Of a stretch of 64,000 nucleotides of DNA, positions 9,460 through 34,049 are shown piece after piece. How positions within the stretch are numbered: position 1 is the stretch's first letter; every line of letters starts with the position of its first letter. The stretch lies in the NCBI GenBank assembly GCA_020859985.1, contig JAJBVD010000030.1, positions 1 through 64,000 on the forward strand, given 5' to 3'. The notes beneath the pieces are model-generated. The model had not been told where the DNA came from. It made no database searches and saw only the letters and a list, made by a program, of their open reading frames with translations. Source of the DNA: Clostridiales bacterium (GTDB lineage Bacteria; Bacillota; Clostridia; Lachnospirales; Lachnospiraceae). A program made the position numbers and the translations under genes.

Positions 9460-11061
9460 TCAGTCGAGCTGATTTACCAGTTCTTTGAATCGCCTGCCGC
9501 GCACCTCATAGTTGGGGAACATCCCCCAGCTGGCGCACGCCGGTGAGAGCAGCACCGCATCTCCGCTTTTTGCGTGCTCCGCGCAGAATGCCACAGCATC
9601 CTCCAGCGAATCCTTCAGCACACAATCGGAAAATCCGCAGTTTTTGGCCGCCTCGGCGATCTTCTCTCTCGTCTGTCCGATCAATACCAGATATTTCACC
9701 TTGCCGTCAAACGCCTGAATCCACTCTTCATACGAGGAATTTTTGTCGTAGCCGCCGCCGATCAGCAGAGTCGGGCGGTCCATCGCCTGAATGCCCTTGA
9801 TTGCCGCGTCCGGATTGGTTCCCTTCGAATCGTTATAGTACACGACGCCGTGCTTTTCGGTCACATACTCAATCCGGTGCTCCACCGCCTGGAACGAGCA
9901 GACTGTTTTGCGAATAACCTCAAACGGTACGCCGTACGCATGGGCCATCGCAGCCGCAGCCATGACATTTTCATGATTGTGGCGGCCAAGAATATTCAGT
10001 TCCTTTGTGGAACAGATCACCGTCTCCGTCGTTCCGTCTGAGTAACAAATATTTTCCCCAGCATCGGCCAAATGCGCAGCTTTTTCTGCATGGCCGATGC
10101 AATCTGCCGCCGAAGCAAAGCGAGGGGGCGCTTCCCGCTCGAGGTACATCCCCTCTTTCAGTTTATGCAGACTGCTGAAGTAAATGACTTTTGTCTTTAA
10201 AGTCTTTCCAAACTCCCGCAGGATGGGATCTTCATAATTGAGCACGCAGGCATCGTCCGGTCCCTGATTTTCCGTGATCAGCTCCTTGACACGTATGTAT
10301 TCCTCCATCGTGTGATGGCGGTTCAGATGATCCGGCGTGATATTAAGGATCGCGCTCACTCGTGGCGCAAAGCCCTCGATCGTTTCCAGCTGGAAGCTGG
10401 AAATCTCCGCGACCACGATGGAATCCTCTGTCAGCTTTGCTGCTGCATCCGTGTACGGATTGCCGATGTTGCCGACGACGCAGACACGCTCATCCGGAAG
10501 CGTATCCTCATCCGCACAGCTTTCTTTCCCTGCGCTGCACGCTTCCCCTGTTTTACCATGACAATTGCCTGTCGTCCGAAGCCATACAGCATAATCCCGC
10601 ATGATCTCACCCAGCAGGCTCGTCGTCGTAGTCTTTCCATTTGTACCCGTCACCGCAAGCACATCGCCTTTGCCGCACTCCCAGGCAAGCTCCACCTCGC
10701 CCCAGATACGCACACCACGCTCCCGCATCGCATTCACAAGCGGCAGGTCGGTCGGCACGCCGGGACTTAGCACCGCCAGATCAATCCGCGCAAGCACCTC
10801 GTCCGGAAGTTCACCGAGGATGATCTGCAGGCGGCCGCCGCAGTCTGCTCCGGCATTCTCCACATCTACAATGCTTTTTGAGGCATCATTATCATTTGTC
10901 GGGGCAACAACAACCTTCTCCTCAAGTTCCTTTGCATTCAATTTCTCATTCCCGTCATACAGAATTACTTCCTTTGCCGGTACACCAAGCAAAAGCCTGG
11001 CCGCTCCGATTCCGCTGATGCCCGCGCCAAAGACAAGGACGCGGCTAGTCGTTAGTTCCAT
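9460..11061 (-). CDS. murD: UDP-N-acetylmuramoylalanine--D-glutamate ligase MurD (with insertions)
   Basis: An ATP-dependent ligase that adds D-Glu to UDP-MurNAc-L-Ala. The N-terminal UDP-binding domain begins LVFGAGISGIGAARLL; the P-loop is VTGTNGKTTTTSLL (137-150); the central motif is ILNITPDHLNRH; the C-terminal domain contains YNDSKGTNPDAA. It has 533 residues against about 450 for the family. The excess is three insertions at about residues 52-78, 162-191 and 308-338. The third is encoded by palindrome-rich DNA (10061-10135) related to an insertion in priA. All motifs are intact, so it should be active. It starts at 11061 with AAAGGA upstream. Confidence 0.94.
   Translation of the reverse strand: MELTTSRVLVFGAGISGIGAARLLLGVPAKEVILYDGNEKLNAKELEEKVVVAPTNDNDASKSIVDVENAGADCGGRLQIILGELPDEVLARIDLAVLSPGVPTDLPLVNAMRERGVRIWGEVELAWECGKGDVLAVTGTNGKTTTTSLLGEIMRDYAVWLRTTGNCHGKTGEACSAGKESCADEDTLPDERVCVVGNIGNPYTDAAAKLTEDSIVVAEISSFQLETIEGFAPRVSAILNITPDHLNRHHTMEEYIRVKELITENQGPDDACVLNYEDPILREFGKTLKTKVIYFSSLHKLKEGMYLEREAPPRFASAADCIGHAEKAAHLADAGENICYSDGTTETVICSTKELNILGRHNHENVMAAAAMAHAYGVPFEVIRKTVCSFQAVEHRIEYVTEKHGVVYYNDSKGTNPDAAIKGIQAMDRPTLLIGGGYDKNSSYEEWIQAFDGKVKYLVLIGQTREKIAEAAKNCGFSDCVLKDSLEDAVAFCAEHAKSGDAVLLSPACASWGMFPNYEVRGRRFKELVNQLD
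10061..10135 (-). repeat. Palindromic element inside murD, related to one in priA
   Basis: A perfect inverted repeat GCATCGGCCA (10061-10070) / TGGCCGATGC (10091-10100) adjoins a block at 10079-10135. By hand alignment that block matches 32446-32501 in priA at about 44 of 57 positions; shared cores are TTTTCTGCAT, ATCT and GCGAGGGGGC.CTTCC. It encodes about residues 308-338 of MurD, which are extra compared with the family. Confidence 0.5.
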
Positions 11062-21429: not shown

Positions 21430-22065
21430 TTATATTTCCTCCCTCAAAAGTTGGCAGTCCAATAACCGCTTAATATTATCAGGGATTTCTTTCCCTGTAT
21501 CTTTAACCAATATTGTATCATACAAAGACTTGCTGGCATCTTTCGCAAAAATAAAATCAATAATCTCTCCGGCTCCGCTTTTCTCTATCGATGAGTCTTC
21601 AACTCTTAATGACCTTGGCAGAAAAAAATCATTGACTTTCTTTCCCTCATTATTCAGGTTTTCAGTTAACCCAAGTGTAAATTCAAGGTTTGTCAAACTC
21701 AATTTATAAACTATAGTTACTGTCTGCATATCTTTTAAAATACACACCATCTCATTTGTCAGTTCCGGCAGACGCTTTAAGCAGGGCAATTTTTTCCTTG
21801 CATTTGCATATGGATGCTGCATATCAAAATAAAACTGGTTATTTGTCAGTTTTCCTTTTTTCGCATTTTTATAAAAATCTTTTGCAGAAATATTTGTTTT
21901 AACTCCCGTTAGATGTAGGAAATGATCGGTTGGAAAGGATACCTCAAAATATTCTTTTCCATATACGTACAAAAATGTCTTGCCTGCAAGCTGTTTACTG
22001 TATATGAAAGCCGCATCTATAATTTCCTGTCTGATTGCATTCTTCTTATCCGCTTTTGTTGCCAT
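21430..22065 (-). CDS. PBECR4-domain protein, candidate toxin of an RNA-antitoxin locus
   Basis: A 211-residue soluble protein. The core YVYGKEYFEVSF, FLHLTGVKTNISAKDFYKNA and KKLPCLKRLPEL resembles the PBECR4 family (phage-type Barnase/EndoU/Colicin/RelE-like nuclease fold), predicted RNases often carried on phages and integrative elements; recognition is from memory of the motif. Base composition is clearly AT-richer than flanking ychF and rpe, suggesting acquisition. The ATG at 22065 has GGGGTG 5 nt upstream; the frame extends to 22104 but would start inside the terminator hairpin. Directly upstream are a terminator, two tandem structured RNA units and a strong promoter, as in type III toxin-antitoxin loci. 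Toxicity and RNase activity are inferred. Confidence 0.65.
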   Translation of the reverse strand: MATKADKKNAIRQEIIDAAFIYSKQLAGKTFLYVYGKEYFEVSFPTDHFLHLTGVKTNISAKDFYKNAKKGKLTNNQFYFDMQHPYANARKKLPCLKRLPELTNEMVCILKDMQTVTIVYKLSLTNLEFTLGLTENLNNEGKKVNDFFLPRSLRVEDSSIEKSGAGEIIDFIFAKDASKSLYDTILVKDTGKEIPDNIKRLLDCQLLREEI

Positions 22066-22080
22066 TTTCACCCCGTATGT

Positions 22081-22111
22081 AAAAAGGAGTGTGATAAGCC
22101 TCACACTCCTT
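22081..22111 (-). terminator. Intrinsic terminator between the RNA units and the PBECR4 gene
   Basis: On the minus strand, a perfect 11-bp stem AAGGAGTGTGA / TCACACTCCTT with a 6-nt loop, then TTTTT. It lies 16 nt before the PBECR4 start, so most transcripts would end here and only read-through would express the protein. Confidence 0.85.
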
Positions 22112-22140
22112 TCAAAATCAGAAAAAAGAGTTTTATGCTG

Positions 22141-22336
22141 GTTGTCAGCCTCAGTATCCAGTTAAGATACCAAAAACGACGTGGAAATCATTAAGTCCTC
22201 CACGTGGACTACAACTTTCTCCAAGTTGCCAAGCTCGATATTCAGTTAAAATATCTTATGAGATGGAAGTTTTATCCTGCTCCATCTGCAGCACAACTTT
22301 TTACGATGCTCTTACATCGGGAACATTTCTGCTCCT
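22141..22336 (-). ncRNA. Tandem structured RNA, two 82-nt units with H-type pseudoknots
   Basis: Two tandem units, period 82 nt (plus-strand ACAACTTT at 22293-22300 and 22211-22218). Each unit has a closing stem (AAGTTG/CAACTT in unit 1, GTTGT/ACAAC in unit 2). Each has a hairpin with conserved loop sequence TTAACTG (GATAT/ATATC; GTATC/GATAC). Each also has an H-type pseudoknot. Unit 1: stem 1 CTGC (22288-22291) with GCAG (22277-22280), stem 2 AGATGGA (22281-22287) with TCCATCT (22261-22267). Unit 2: stem 1 AGTCC (22206-22210) with GGACT (22194-22198), stem 2 ACGTGGA (22199-22205) with TCCACGT (22179-22185). Paired bases differ between units while pairing is kept, which is covariation. No ORF is seen. 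Confidence 0.7.
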
Positions 22337-22342
22337 AACTAT

Positions 22343-22370
22343 ATTATACGCAAAACAAATTGAAAGTCAA
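22343..22370 (-). promoter_or_regulatory. Strong promoter for the tandem RNA
   Basis: Minus strand: -35 TTGACT (22365-22370), 16-nt spacer, consensus -10 TATAAT (22343-22348). Transcription would start near 22336 and read the RNA units, the terminator and then the PBECR4 gene. Confidence 0.8.
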
Positions 22371-31601: not shown

Positions 31602-34049
31602 CTACCTTTCAAAGTTAATATTTATATTGGAAAAGCCGCTGTTCATCCCGATATACTGCTCCATATAATTTTTCATCGATGTCAGTGCTTTTTCATCCTT
31701 ATGCCGAATGTAAAAAACCATACGGTAAATGTCATTCACCTTTGCAATCGCCTCATCCGCCGGTCCCATCATGACAGCGTGACATTTCTCCGCCAATCCC
31801 TTAGCGAACCGCGCCAGATATGAAACCGCCTGCGTCAGGCGTTCCTTATCTCCAGAAGCACAGTGAACACTCATCAGCGAACCGACCGGCGGATAACCGG
31901 ATAATGAGCGATATTCGATCTCCTGCTCATAAAACGGCTCATAAGTCTGCGCCGCCGCACAGCTGATCGCATAATGCTCAGGCCGATACGTCTGGATCAC
32001 CACTTCCCCCGGTACCTCCCCGCGCCCGGCCCGGCCGGCTGCCTGCGCGAGCAGCTGATAGGTCCGCTCCGCTGCGCGAAAATCACTGCTGTTCAGAGAA
32101 AGGTCAGCGGCCAGCGCTCCGACCAGCGCCACCTGCGGAAAGTCATGCCCCTTCACGATCATCTGTGTACCGATCAGGATATCCGCTTCGTGTCTGCCAA
32201 ATGCGCGAAGGATTTCTGCGTGCCCATCCTTTCCGCGGGTTGTATCCGCATCCATTCGCAGGATCCGTGCCCCCGGAAATGCCGCAGCCACCACCGTTTC
32301 AATCTGCTGCGTGCCTGCCTTGAAGCCGCCAATAAACGGAGATCCGCACTTCGGACACTTACTCATGACCGGCTCCTCATAGCCGCAGTAGTGGCAGATC
32401 AGGCGTCCTCCCTGGGTACTTCCACGAGCGCCGGTGAAACGCGAAGCGTTTTCTGCATCAACGGCGCGATCTACCCCCGAGCGATGCGAGGGGGCACTTC
32501 CACGATGCAGGGAAAGCGAAACGTCGCAATGCGGGCATTTTACCACATGACCGCAGGAACGGCAAGAGTAAAACCCGGCATAGCCTCTGCGGTTCAAAAA
32601 CAGCATGCTCTGCTGCCCCTGTTCCAGAACCGCATGCATTTTTTCCACCAGAGGGCGGCTCAAAATCGAGCTGTTGCCATCCCGAAGTTCCTTTCGCATA
32701 TCCACGACAGAAACCGCTGCCAGCTGTGACCCGGTCGCCCGATGCTCCATCTTAAGCAGACGGCTCACCCCCTGCGTCGCAGCATAATAGGATTCGAGCG
32801 ACGGGGTTGCCGAACCCAGCACCAGAGTTGCTCCTTCCAGCGCCGCCCGTTTGCGCGCGACCTCCCGTGCGTCGTAACGCGGCATCGTCTCACTTTTATA
32901 AGAAGGCTCATGCTCCTCGTCGATAATAATCAGTCCCAGATGTTCAAACGGCGTAAACAGCGCGGAACGCGGGCCGATCATCACATCAATGTCCCCCGCT
33001 TTTGCCCGCTCAAACTGATCGTACCGTTCCGCCTGTGACAATCTGGAATGCAGAATGGAAATCCGGTCTCCAAACGCGTGGTAGAAGCGAACGACGTTCT
33101 GATAAGTCAGTGAAATCTCCGGAATCAGCAGAATAGCCTGCTGCCCGCGCGCAATCGTCTTCGCGATCAGCTCCATATAAACGGCAGTCTTGCCGCTGCC
33201 CGTCACACCGTGGATGAGGAACTCATTCCGAAAACTTCCGCAAATCGCATCTACTACATTCTGCTGCTCCGCTGTCAGGGTAAAGCCTGTCACGGAATCA
33301 TGCATGCCATTTTCTGCCGTTAAAGATGTTGATACTTTCTCTTTCCAGACAAAATCTCTTTCATCTGCAGGCTTTTCTGCATTTATCGCTAAATCCGATT
33401 GTGTAAGCAGCTGTGAATTCGCTTTGTCTGTGCTCTGCATCTCTTCACGCAGCTGCTCCAGCACGGCCGGAGTCCGGTAGACCTGCTCCGACTCACAGCG
33501 GATGATTCCCATCTCCTCCATCGAGCGCAGCACCGGCTGCGTGATCCGTAAAGTACCTGTCACCGCCTCCTGCGGAAGAACCGGATCCTCTATCAGGGCC
33601 TCCAGAAGTCTCGCGCGTGCGGTCTGATGCTTTTTTCGAAGCTCTTCAAGCCTTATCTTTGCTTCATCAGGATCCAGAAGAAGCGCCACCCTTTTTTTCT
33701 TTTTCCGCGGAGCGCTGCTTCGAAATGGAAGCACAGTACGAAGTGCCTGTACTGTAGTTGACCCATAATAATCGCGCATCCAGAGCGCGAGAGCCGTTAA
33801 TTTGGACTCTGCGCCGCCAATACTGGTCACCCGCTGTCGGATGGTCTTCATCTTCTCCGGCGGACAGGCAGGGATGAGCGAAATCCGCAGCACATAGCCC
33901 TTCGTTATCCGGTCGCCGCGCCCGAACGGTATCTCCACCACATCGCCCGGCTCCAATGTGTCCGCCAATTCGTCCGGTATCCGGTATTGAAACGTCTGAT
34001 CCAGTTTGCCCAGTGAGATATCGATGATGATATCCGCATATAAAGTCAT
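31602..34049 (-). CDS. priA: Primosomal replication-restart helicase PriA (with two insertions)
   Basis: An 815-residue superfamily 2 helicase that reloads the replisome at collapsed forks. An N-terminal 3'-DNA-binding domain is followed by Walker A GVTGSGKT (281-288), DEEH (377-380), LGSATPSLES and two zinc-binding Cys pairs (CRSCG, CPHCD, CHYCG, CPKCG). Two regions exceed the family: about 201-252 (before the helicase core) and 517-548, which interrupts the zinc region between CPHCDVSL and ICHYCG. The second is encoded by DNA with a 14-bp imperfect direct repeat at its ends. It overlaps murE by 4 nt. Confidence 0.94.
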   Translation of the reverse strand: MTLYADIIIDISLGKLDQTFQYRIPDELADTLEPGDVVEIPFGRGDRITKGYVLRISLIPACPPEKMKTIRQRVTSIGGAESKLTALALWMRDYYGSTTVQALRTVLPFRSSAPRKKKKRVALLLDPDEAKIRLEELRKKHQTARARLLEALIEDPVLPQEAVTGTLRITQPVLRSMEEMGIIRCESEQVYRTPAVLEQLREEMQSTDKANSQLLTQSDLAINAEKPADERDFVWKEKVSTSLTAENGMHDSVTGFTLTAEQQNVVDAICGSFRNEFLIHGVTGSGKTAVYMELIAKTIARGQQAILLIPEISLTYQNVVRFYHAFGDRISILHSRLSQAERYDQFERAKAGDIDVMIGPRSALFTPFEHLGLIIIDEEHEPSYKSETMPRYDAREVARKRAALEGATLVLGSATPSLESYYAATQGVSRLLKMEHRATGSQLAAVSVVDMRKELRDGNSSILSRPLVEKMHAVLEQGQQSMLFLNRRGYAGFYSCRSCGHVVKCPHCDVSLSLHRGSAPSHRSGVDRAVDAENASRFTGARGSTQGGRLICHYCGYEEPVMSKCPKCGSPFIGGFKAGTQQIETVVAAAFPGARILRMDADTTRGKDGHAEILRAFGRHEADILIGTQMIVKGHDFPQVALVGALAADLSLNSSDFRAAERTYQLLAQAAGRAGRGEVPGEVVIQTYRPEHYAISCAAAQTYEPFYEQEIEYRSLSGYPPVGSLMSVHCASGDKERLTQAVSYLARFAKGLAEKCHAVMMGPADEAIAKVNDIYRMVFYIRHKDEKALTSMKNYMEQYIGMNSGFSNININFER
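32414..32505 (-). repeat. Insertion element inside priA with flanking direct repeats
   Basis: GGG.ACTTCCACGA occurs at 32414-32427 and 32492-32505 (13 of 14 identical), flanking about 64 bp. Inside are the hairpin AAACGC-GAA-GCGTTT (32437-32451) and the CCCCC...GGGGG arms (32474-32494). The segment 32446-32501 aligns with murD 10079-10135. It encodes extra PriA residues within 517-548. Confidence 0.55.

Follow-up and report, generated by a model that had tools for sequence, protein, structure and literature searches.

We identified a locus that is very probably a type III-like toxin–antitoxin module with a BECR-type toxin, in which a PBECR4-family protein is the predicted toxin and a structured RNA encoded ahead of its gene the predicted antitoxin; its toxicity, RNA binding, RNA processing and trigger are predictions. 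The locus lies in a stretch of 64,000 nucleotides (nt) from a Clostridiales bacterium of the family Lachnospiraceae (contig JAJBVD010000030.1, positions 1-64,000, forward strand), and this whole stretch is called the window. Between rpe and ychF, and all on the minus strand, there follow one another a promoter, about 194 nt of structured RNA, a terminator, a ribosome-binding site and an open reading frame (ORF) of 211 amino acids. A preliminary description of the window had given this order, with two 82-nt RNA units, and each part could be located. The sigma-70-type promoter, TTGACT-16-TATAAT (22343-22370), matched the consensus at 11 of 12 positions, and the consensus scan gave 3 promoter-like sites in this region compared to 1.8 expected. 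The intrinsic terminator at the boundary between RNA and gene (22083-22112) is a perfect 12-bp stem with a TTTTT tract behind it; a strict scan called it, and a simple general scanner listed none. The ribosome-binding site, read from the sequence, is GGGGTG (22069-22074), and the PBECR4 ORF (21430-22065) ends with a stop codon 2 bases ahead of the ychF start.

The structured RNA (22126-22319), here called class A, is supported by homologous loci and covariation. It contains two units with a period of 82 nt, unit 1 at 22219-22300 and unit 2 at 22137-22218, and AAAGTTGT recurs with this period at 22300 and 22218. The leader folded together with the terminator gave a z-score of -5.2. A single contig scan gave at least 12 homologous loci with 68-80% identity, four of the matches being partial. 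Among the matches listed, a class A RNA was present in 12 of 12 loci, and by eye a hairpin stood ahead of the gene in all of them. Boxes of the type TTGATT...TATAAT preceded the RNA in most of these 12 homologues by eye, and were not evident in L011 and L012. Covariation was then measured in a plain MAFFT alignment of 19 sequences, with a structure of 55 pairs in ten helices and three crossing sets. Over all 55 pairs, pseudoknots included, 94.6% of the cells were paired, a percentage that is favoured by the derivation of the structure from the window sequence. Double-sided changes occurred in 23 pairs, compared to 6.3 +/- 2.0 in shuffles and 3-7 in slid versions of the structure, and the covariation score was 0.217 compared to 0.127 in shuffles; misaligned stretches of three sequences (L034, L036 and L037) lower these figures.

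Both units can form an H-type pseudoknot, with both stems pairing as the preliminary description had proposed. In unit 1 (22261-22291; CTGC/GCAG and AGATGGA/TCCATCT), 94.7% and 91.0% of the cells were paired, and double-sided changes were found in five pairs of the second stem and none of the first. In unit 2 (22179-22210; AGTCC/GGACT and ACGTGGA/TCCACGT), the first stem was invariant and gave no evidence either way, and the second stem was 90.9% paired with four double-sided pairs. The hairpin with a TTAACTG loop that had been proposed for each unit was also present and covarying, with double-sided changes in five of six pairs of hairpin 1 (22237-22255, 100% of cells paired) and in four of six pairs of hairpin 2 (22153-22171, 92.1% paired). 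A reading of this 7-nt loop as a mimic of an anticodon loop was dropped, by eye, as divergent relatives carry other loops.

The closing stem that had been placed within each unit is not the part that covaries; the covariation instead joined CAACTT of unit 1 to AAGTTG of unit 2. This inter-unit hairpin (22212-22228, 93.0% of cells paired) appears as CAGCTT/AAGCTG, CAACAG/CTGTTG and CATCTG/CAGATG in relatives and has three double-sided pairs. At the far end of the RNA there is an invariant 3′ hairpin, GCTG-ACAAC-CAGC (22137-22149), and the loop of this hairpin pairs with GTTGT (22293-22297). This pairing was retained in 88.4% of the cells and has one double-sided pair, GTTG/CAAC changing to GCTG/CAGC. 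Since the 3′ strand of unit 1 covaries with the 5′ strand of unit 2, and the first GTTGT with the last ACAAC, the two units appear to belong to one connected fold. Moreover, the loop AAGAG (22309-22313) of the 5′ hairpin (22304-22319, 100% of cells paired) can by eye pair with CTCTT (22126-22130) and close the RNA into a ring. Relatives showed variants of this loop-to-3′-end pairing, such as AGCGG/CCGCT in L037 and GCAAG/CTTGC in L027, with a weak form of 3 bp in L034 and L102. These variants were read by eye; a scripted search often chose another hairpin and alone did not show the pairing. Taken together, the class A RNA looks like a single two-lobed fold closed into a ring, and not like a pair of units each closed on itself.

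To see how general this arrangement was, the DNA upstream of PBECR4 genes was read at 121 places, with some fragmentary or weak places left out. Removing six near-duplicates (>90%) and three places with <250 nt of upstream DNA left 112 genes. RNA classes were set by hand from hits of the class A covariance model (R2), Rfam hits, profile hits and motifs. An upstream RNA was assigned by hand in 108 of the 112 genes, 101 in seven recurrent classes and seven by eye. The classes were A, the type found in the window (23), B, consisting of drum and drum-like RNAs (34), C (28), E (7), F (4), H (3) and G (2); the remaining 11 rows were the seven singletons seen by eye and four genes with no RNA. All 86 proteins of at least 170 amino acids had an RNA, in 79 cases of a recurrent class and in seven by eye. 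Of 26 shorter proteins, a mixture of contig-end cuts, in-frame stops and wrong starts, 22 had an RNA and four (109-156 amino acids) did not. Start codons were assigned by a fixed rule that misplaced several of them (e.g. L024, L035, L082 and L116). The preliminary description had staked its reading on repeats being conserved upstream of homologous genes and on the RNA not being a known riboswitch class; the RNAs at the 12 close loci and at 108 genes of the wider set bore out the former, and an Rfam search with the leader, which gave no match, agreed with the latter. The window RNA reached the gathering score of no Rfam family, drum RF02958 included, and at E values up to 5 the only hits were LhrC, with 18.3 bits against a gathering score of 110, and a precursor of a microRNA, with 17.3 bits against 60.

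The strict scan called a terminator ahead of 86 of the 112 PBECR4 genes, compared to 4 of 71 other genes in the window and its flanks and to 2.85 +/- 1.1 per 112 in shuffles. A version that was stricter on A-T pairs called 66 of 112, with 3 of 71 in the controls and 5.75 in shuffles. ToxN loci served as the positive control; the scan covered 14 of 15 retrieved loci and called a terminator in 13. Folding by minimum free energy, a method that takes no pseudoknots, gave z-scores below -2 in 36 of 86 loci compared to 11 of 71 controls (Mann-Whitney p 0.003). One displaced case was L025, with the RNA about 328-556 nt ahead of the gene and 97% identical to the RNA of L041. The gap of about 330 nt between RNA and PBECR4 in L025 holds several GC-rich palindromes with TAATATAACTTA flanks.

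The RNA classes followed the protein phylogeny. On the tree of the 86 full-length proteins, RNA class changed 8 times, compared to a minimum of 7 and to 50.7 in shuffles; near-copies favour this result, and the tree has 83 inner branches of which 34 are weak. In the 7 loci of class E, H-type pseudoknots stand in tandem, two or three per locus at a spacing of 31-32 nt (in L030 the first of them was seen by eye). Their first pair is compensated, occurring as G-C, T-A and A-T, by a reading of the pairing that was again made by eye. When 30 class C loci were searched with a pattern, 5 showed a pair of pseudoknot units at a distance of 52-68 nt, 16 showed a single unit and 9 showed none. The 5′ loop and 3′ end of class C occur in the covarying forms GCTGA/TCAGC, GGTTGA/TCAACC, GGCTAA/TTAGCC and GACTGG/CCAGTC, and this loop pairing was poor or unmatched in 6 of 30 rows (L023, L025, L068, L082, L091 and L094). 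Classes A and C may be distantly related; iterated nhmmer clustering merged them, by our reading partly via shared promoters.

Class B is the drum RNA of Rfam (RF02958), found at the gathering threshold directly upstream of the PBECR4 genes of one clade. Drum RNA was reportedly discovered by Weinberg and colleagues in 2017. We found no published function for it, the print on drum, as far as it was accessible, concerning structure prediction, k-turns and Rfam itself. The window's own genome contains a second PBECR4 gene behind a drum RNA (G000:C21:95667-96425; L017, L044). Upstream DNA was also read for 7 of 31 plasmid and phage records (L053 and L177-L182). Drum RNA precedes PBECR4 on plasmids L177-L179, two from Enterococcus with near-identical loci and one from Streptococcus suis, and the plasmid L053 has an RNA by eye. 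In the Streptococcus phage Javan100 (L182), the RNA, seen by eye, consists of two near-identical tandem repeats and is followed by a terminator ahead of the gene; the annotated ORF 1171-1941 of this phage appears to be wrongly extended through both repeats and the terminator. Erysipelothrix phage phi1605 (L181, 1501-2118) has a class C-like RNA by eye, followed by a PBECR4 frame with an in-frame stop.

The protein itself was assigned to PBECR4 with PF18813 at an E value of 2.2e-30 and 106.9 bits, compared to a curated cut-off of 27, and it matched phrog_18856 (E 7e-36). Searches against NCBIfam and PADLOC gave no match, and the Pfam scan found no Abi_2 and, beyond PBECR4, one weak match to a phage ring protein (E 0.088). 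In 86 full-length rows, His51 and Lys/Arg92 were invariant, Gly54 was present in 85 and Ser/Thr152 in 84, and the window protein has His51, Lys92 and Ser152. We take the family, by its name, to belong to the PBECR clade, and the protein is a predicted ribonuclease (RNase) toxin of the BECR type. Matches of phmmer to HisF barrels (E 0.0005) spanned only about 35-39 residues, were not repeated by profile search and were taken as chance.

RNAs were also found where the toxin gene was not. The genome searches with R2 and drum scored part of the first-look candidates, and the counts are thus lower bounds; in genome G019, the class A RNA at L027 escaped the R2 search and was found by R2 when the locus was given. 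Drum RNA occurred in at least 43 places in 397 genomes, 41 of them over the gathering score. PBECR4 matches followed 14-142 nt downstream in 31 of the 43 places found, one place was at a contig end, four were followed by PBECR4 remnants (L198, L199, L201 and L207), one (L205) kept an apparent toxin leader by eye, and six had neither gene nor trace (among them L208, below gathering). A search of 60 genomes gave at least seven drum copies, six of them ahead of PBECR4 by coordinates. Class A gave at least 11 hits in 98 genomes, of which five precede PBECR4 and one lies at a contig end; two more were intact RNAs without a gene (L140 and L141), and the other three were degenerate. The occurrence of RNAs without the toxin, together with the absence from the 112-gene set of any full-length toxin without an RNA, fits a trans-acting antitoxin and not a cis-regulator. 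Lone RNAs could also be left by chance after recent decay. At L140 and L141, the intact RNA is followed by an ORF resembling an AbiEi-type regulator, a resemblance seen by eye with no profile search made. At L146 (G026:C233), a drum RNA and the apparent first toxin codons run by eye into an SGNH-hydrolase-like ORF, as after a deletion.

Several observations weigh against a type III-like module. The profile comparison that had been suggested in the preliminary description, when run against ToxN with hhalign, gave a probability of 0.5% and thus no similarity, at a profile level that leaves room for a remote relation of folds. A profile search against PDB gave three hits, with no ToxN-family chain and no solved relative among them, and the AlphaFold model of the protein, built with 7 close sequences, had a predicted local distance difference test score (pLDDT) of 45.3 and was unusable, so that the nuclease fold is predicted from membership in the Pfam family. 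On the RNA side, 7 of the 108 assignments were made by eye only, and 26 of 112 genes had no strictly called terminator, several of these having mismatched hairpins by eye. The excess of stable folds was modest. Two loci, L009 and L099, have a single RNA unit and short gene reads. The proteins of the singletons L053 and L093 fall within the class A part of the tree, with RNAs that were not matched to class A, and the six drum places with neither gene nor trace also weigh against the module. Finally, the PBECR4 gene of a Ligilactobacillus salivarius plasmid (L180, 948-1980) has no RNA. This gene directly follows an ORF with a helix-turn-helix-like start and a coiled coil by eye, and L180 is perhaps a protein-antitoxin variant.

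The leader could instead be a cis-regulatory RNA, a tandem riboswitch or attenuator acting on PBECR4 via the terminator, as a structured RNA followed by a terminator right ahead of a gene is the layout of attenuating riboswitches too. We consider this improbable. An antiterminator was not apparent, as the longest Watson-Crick match of the terminator 5′ arm to the preceding 200 nt was 4.83 compared to 4.75 in shuffled sequences, in a crude comparison of 69 of the 86 full-length loci with a called terminator that allowed no gaps or G-U pairs. A cis-regulator would also fit poorly with a single protein family having seven recurrent RNA classes, each of which goes with its own protein clade, with RNAs that persist beside deleted genes, and with a leader that has no match in Rfam.

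The co-evolution of RNA class and protein clade would be expected as well if the RNA were a guide or cofactor of PBECR4 and the ribonucleoprotein the effector. However, some RNAs outlive the gene and no variable guide-like stretch was seen by eye in class A, and we regard an obligate ribonucleoprotein as still less probable than a cis-regulator. That the RNA is a conserved intergenic element which is unrelated to the gene and stands there by chance or hitch-hiking seems very improbable: some copies do stand without a PBECR4 gene, but an RNA was assigned by hand at all 86 full-length genes, and 31 of the 43 drum places found sit 14-142 nt ahead of PBECR4.

A type III-like module would work as follows. 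A single promoter would transcribe the two-unit pseudoknotted RNA, and the terminator would end most transcripts after the RNA, read-through yielding a little PBECR4 mRNA. The protein, a BECR-type RNase, would be bound and kept inactive by the RNA. If the RNA disappeared or ceased to be made, as in phage shut-off or after the module is lost, the protein, being more stable, would be released and would cut cellular or phage RNA. Toxicity, RNase activity, direct binding, processing and the phage trigger are what we infer from the arrangement. Tentatively, and as something that we hold to be slightly short of an even chance, the type III principle may have arisen a second time on the BECR-type PBECR4 and diversified into seven or more RNA families, drum included, with the class A and C RNA remaining uncut as a two-lobed, head-to-tail scaffold, held by the loop-to-3′-end pairing, that could hold two toxins.

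According to the accessible parts of two papers, type III loci are recognised by a tandem pseudoknot RNA, a Rho-independent terminator and a toxin gene, with the RNA class tracking the toxin group (PMC5086642, PMC4627078), and in the three named families, ToxIN, CptIN and TenpIN, the toxins are related to ToxN (PMC5086642, PMC4627078, PMC12373285, each in the part available). The PBECR4 locus resembles these families, as they are described there, in having a promoter, tandem pseudoknot RNA, Rho-independent terminator and toxin gene in a row, and in the co-segregation of the RNA class, as set by hand, with the protein clade. The pseudoknot spacing of 31-32 nt in class E equals the size of the ToxI repeat. 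ToxN and PBECR4 are also both present in the window's genome, the ToxN match being at G000:C70:58795-59286. The locus differs from the three families in its PBECR4 toxin, which has no detectable profile relation to ToxN, in the 82-nt units, extra hairpins and ring-closing pairings of the window RNA, and in the several unrelated-looking RNA classes of the family. Thus, of the type III assignment in the preliminary description, the layout was upheld, as it is shared with ToxN loci in the same scan, and membership in ToxIN, CptIN or TenpIN was not, for want of profile similarity to ToxN. Judged by toxin homology, the module is PBECR4 plus RNA and not a member of any of the three.

The AbiF protein (Abi_2) is neutralised through the binding of an upstream two-motif abiF RNA, RCd22 in C. 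difficile, according to the available part of PMC12373285. The likeness is an upstream two-motif non-coding RNA, with RNA binding only predicted for PBECR4; the differences are the domain, Abi_2 there and PBECR4 here, and the RNA motif, the window RNA having no Rfam match. The drum loci share with the window an RNA directly upstream of PBECR4 and differ in its class. PBECR nucleases are described in the accessible part of PMC5512222 as phage and mobile-element proteins, solo or large and multidomain, and as predicted BECR RNases, with no RNA partner described there. Their His and C-terminal Ser/Thr resemble His51 and Ser152 of the window protein (PMC5512222), and the window PBECR4 differs from them, as they appear in that part of the paper, in being a solo gene behind an RNA. 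In a literature search that covered sources other than bioRxiv preprints, no paper naming PBECR4 was found, so that a description elsewhere is possible, and PBECR together with toxin-antitoxin was found only in PMC5512222. If correct, our reading extends the type III class by a large group of toxins that have RNA antitoxins and gives drum RNA (RF02958) a predicted role.

The names rpe and ychF for the flanking genes are those of the preliminary description and were consistent by eye. The AT-rich island that it had noted between them was confirmed, with a GC content of 0.34-0.38 compared to about 0.55 in the adjoining DNA. When relatives were read upstream of ychF, rpe lay within 1000 nt in 7 of 19, at a spacing of 52-737 nt. 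In two of them the gap was 67 nt (L148) and 59 nt (L149), with both ychF stretches 99% identical, compared to about 1000 nt here. Because close relatives have such a short gap, insertion between rpe and ychF is the most likely origin of the PBECR4 module here.

In profile searches with PF18813, the window's own genome being counted each time, PBECR4 matches were found in 19 of 98 genomes of relatives, and in 4 of 398 genomes of the phylum; within the window's family 72 of 397 genomes had a match, 65 of them over the curated cut-off. For scale, a ToxN match occurred in 21 of 150 genomes from the same family. There were also matches in 27 plasmid records and 4 phage records, and a single scan of viral contigs with the window protein found no relative. 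Other structured RNAs were seen near PBECR4 modules and elsewhere in the window. Cobalamin riboswitches flank one PBECR4 module on both sides (L021, 33-211 and 1589-1773), and 6S and skipping-rope RNAs stand near another (L014, 939-1118 and 611-679). In the window itself, two GA-cis RNAs (RF02987) scored above gathering at 10057-10139 and 32421-32505, both on the plus strand.
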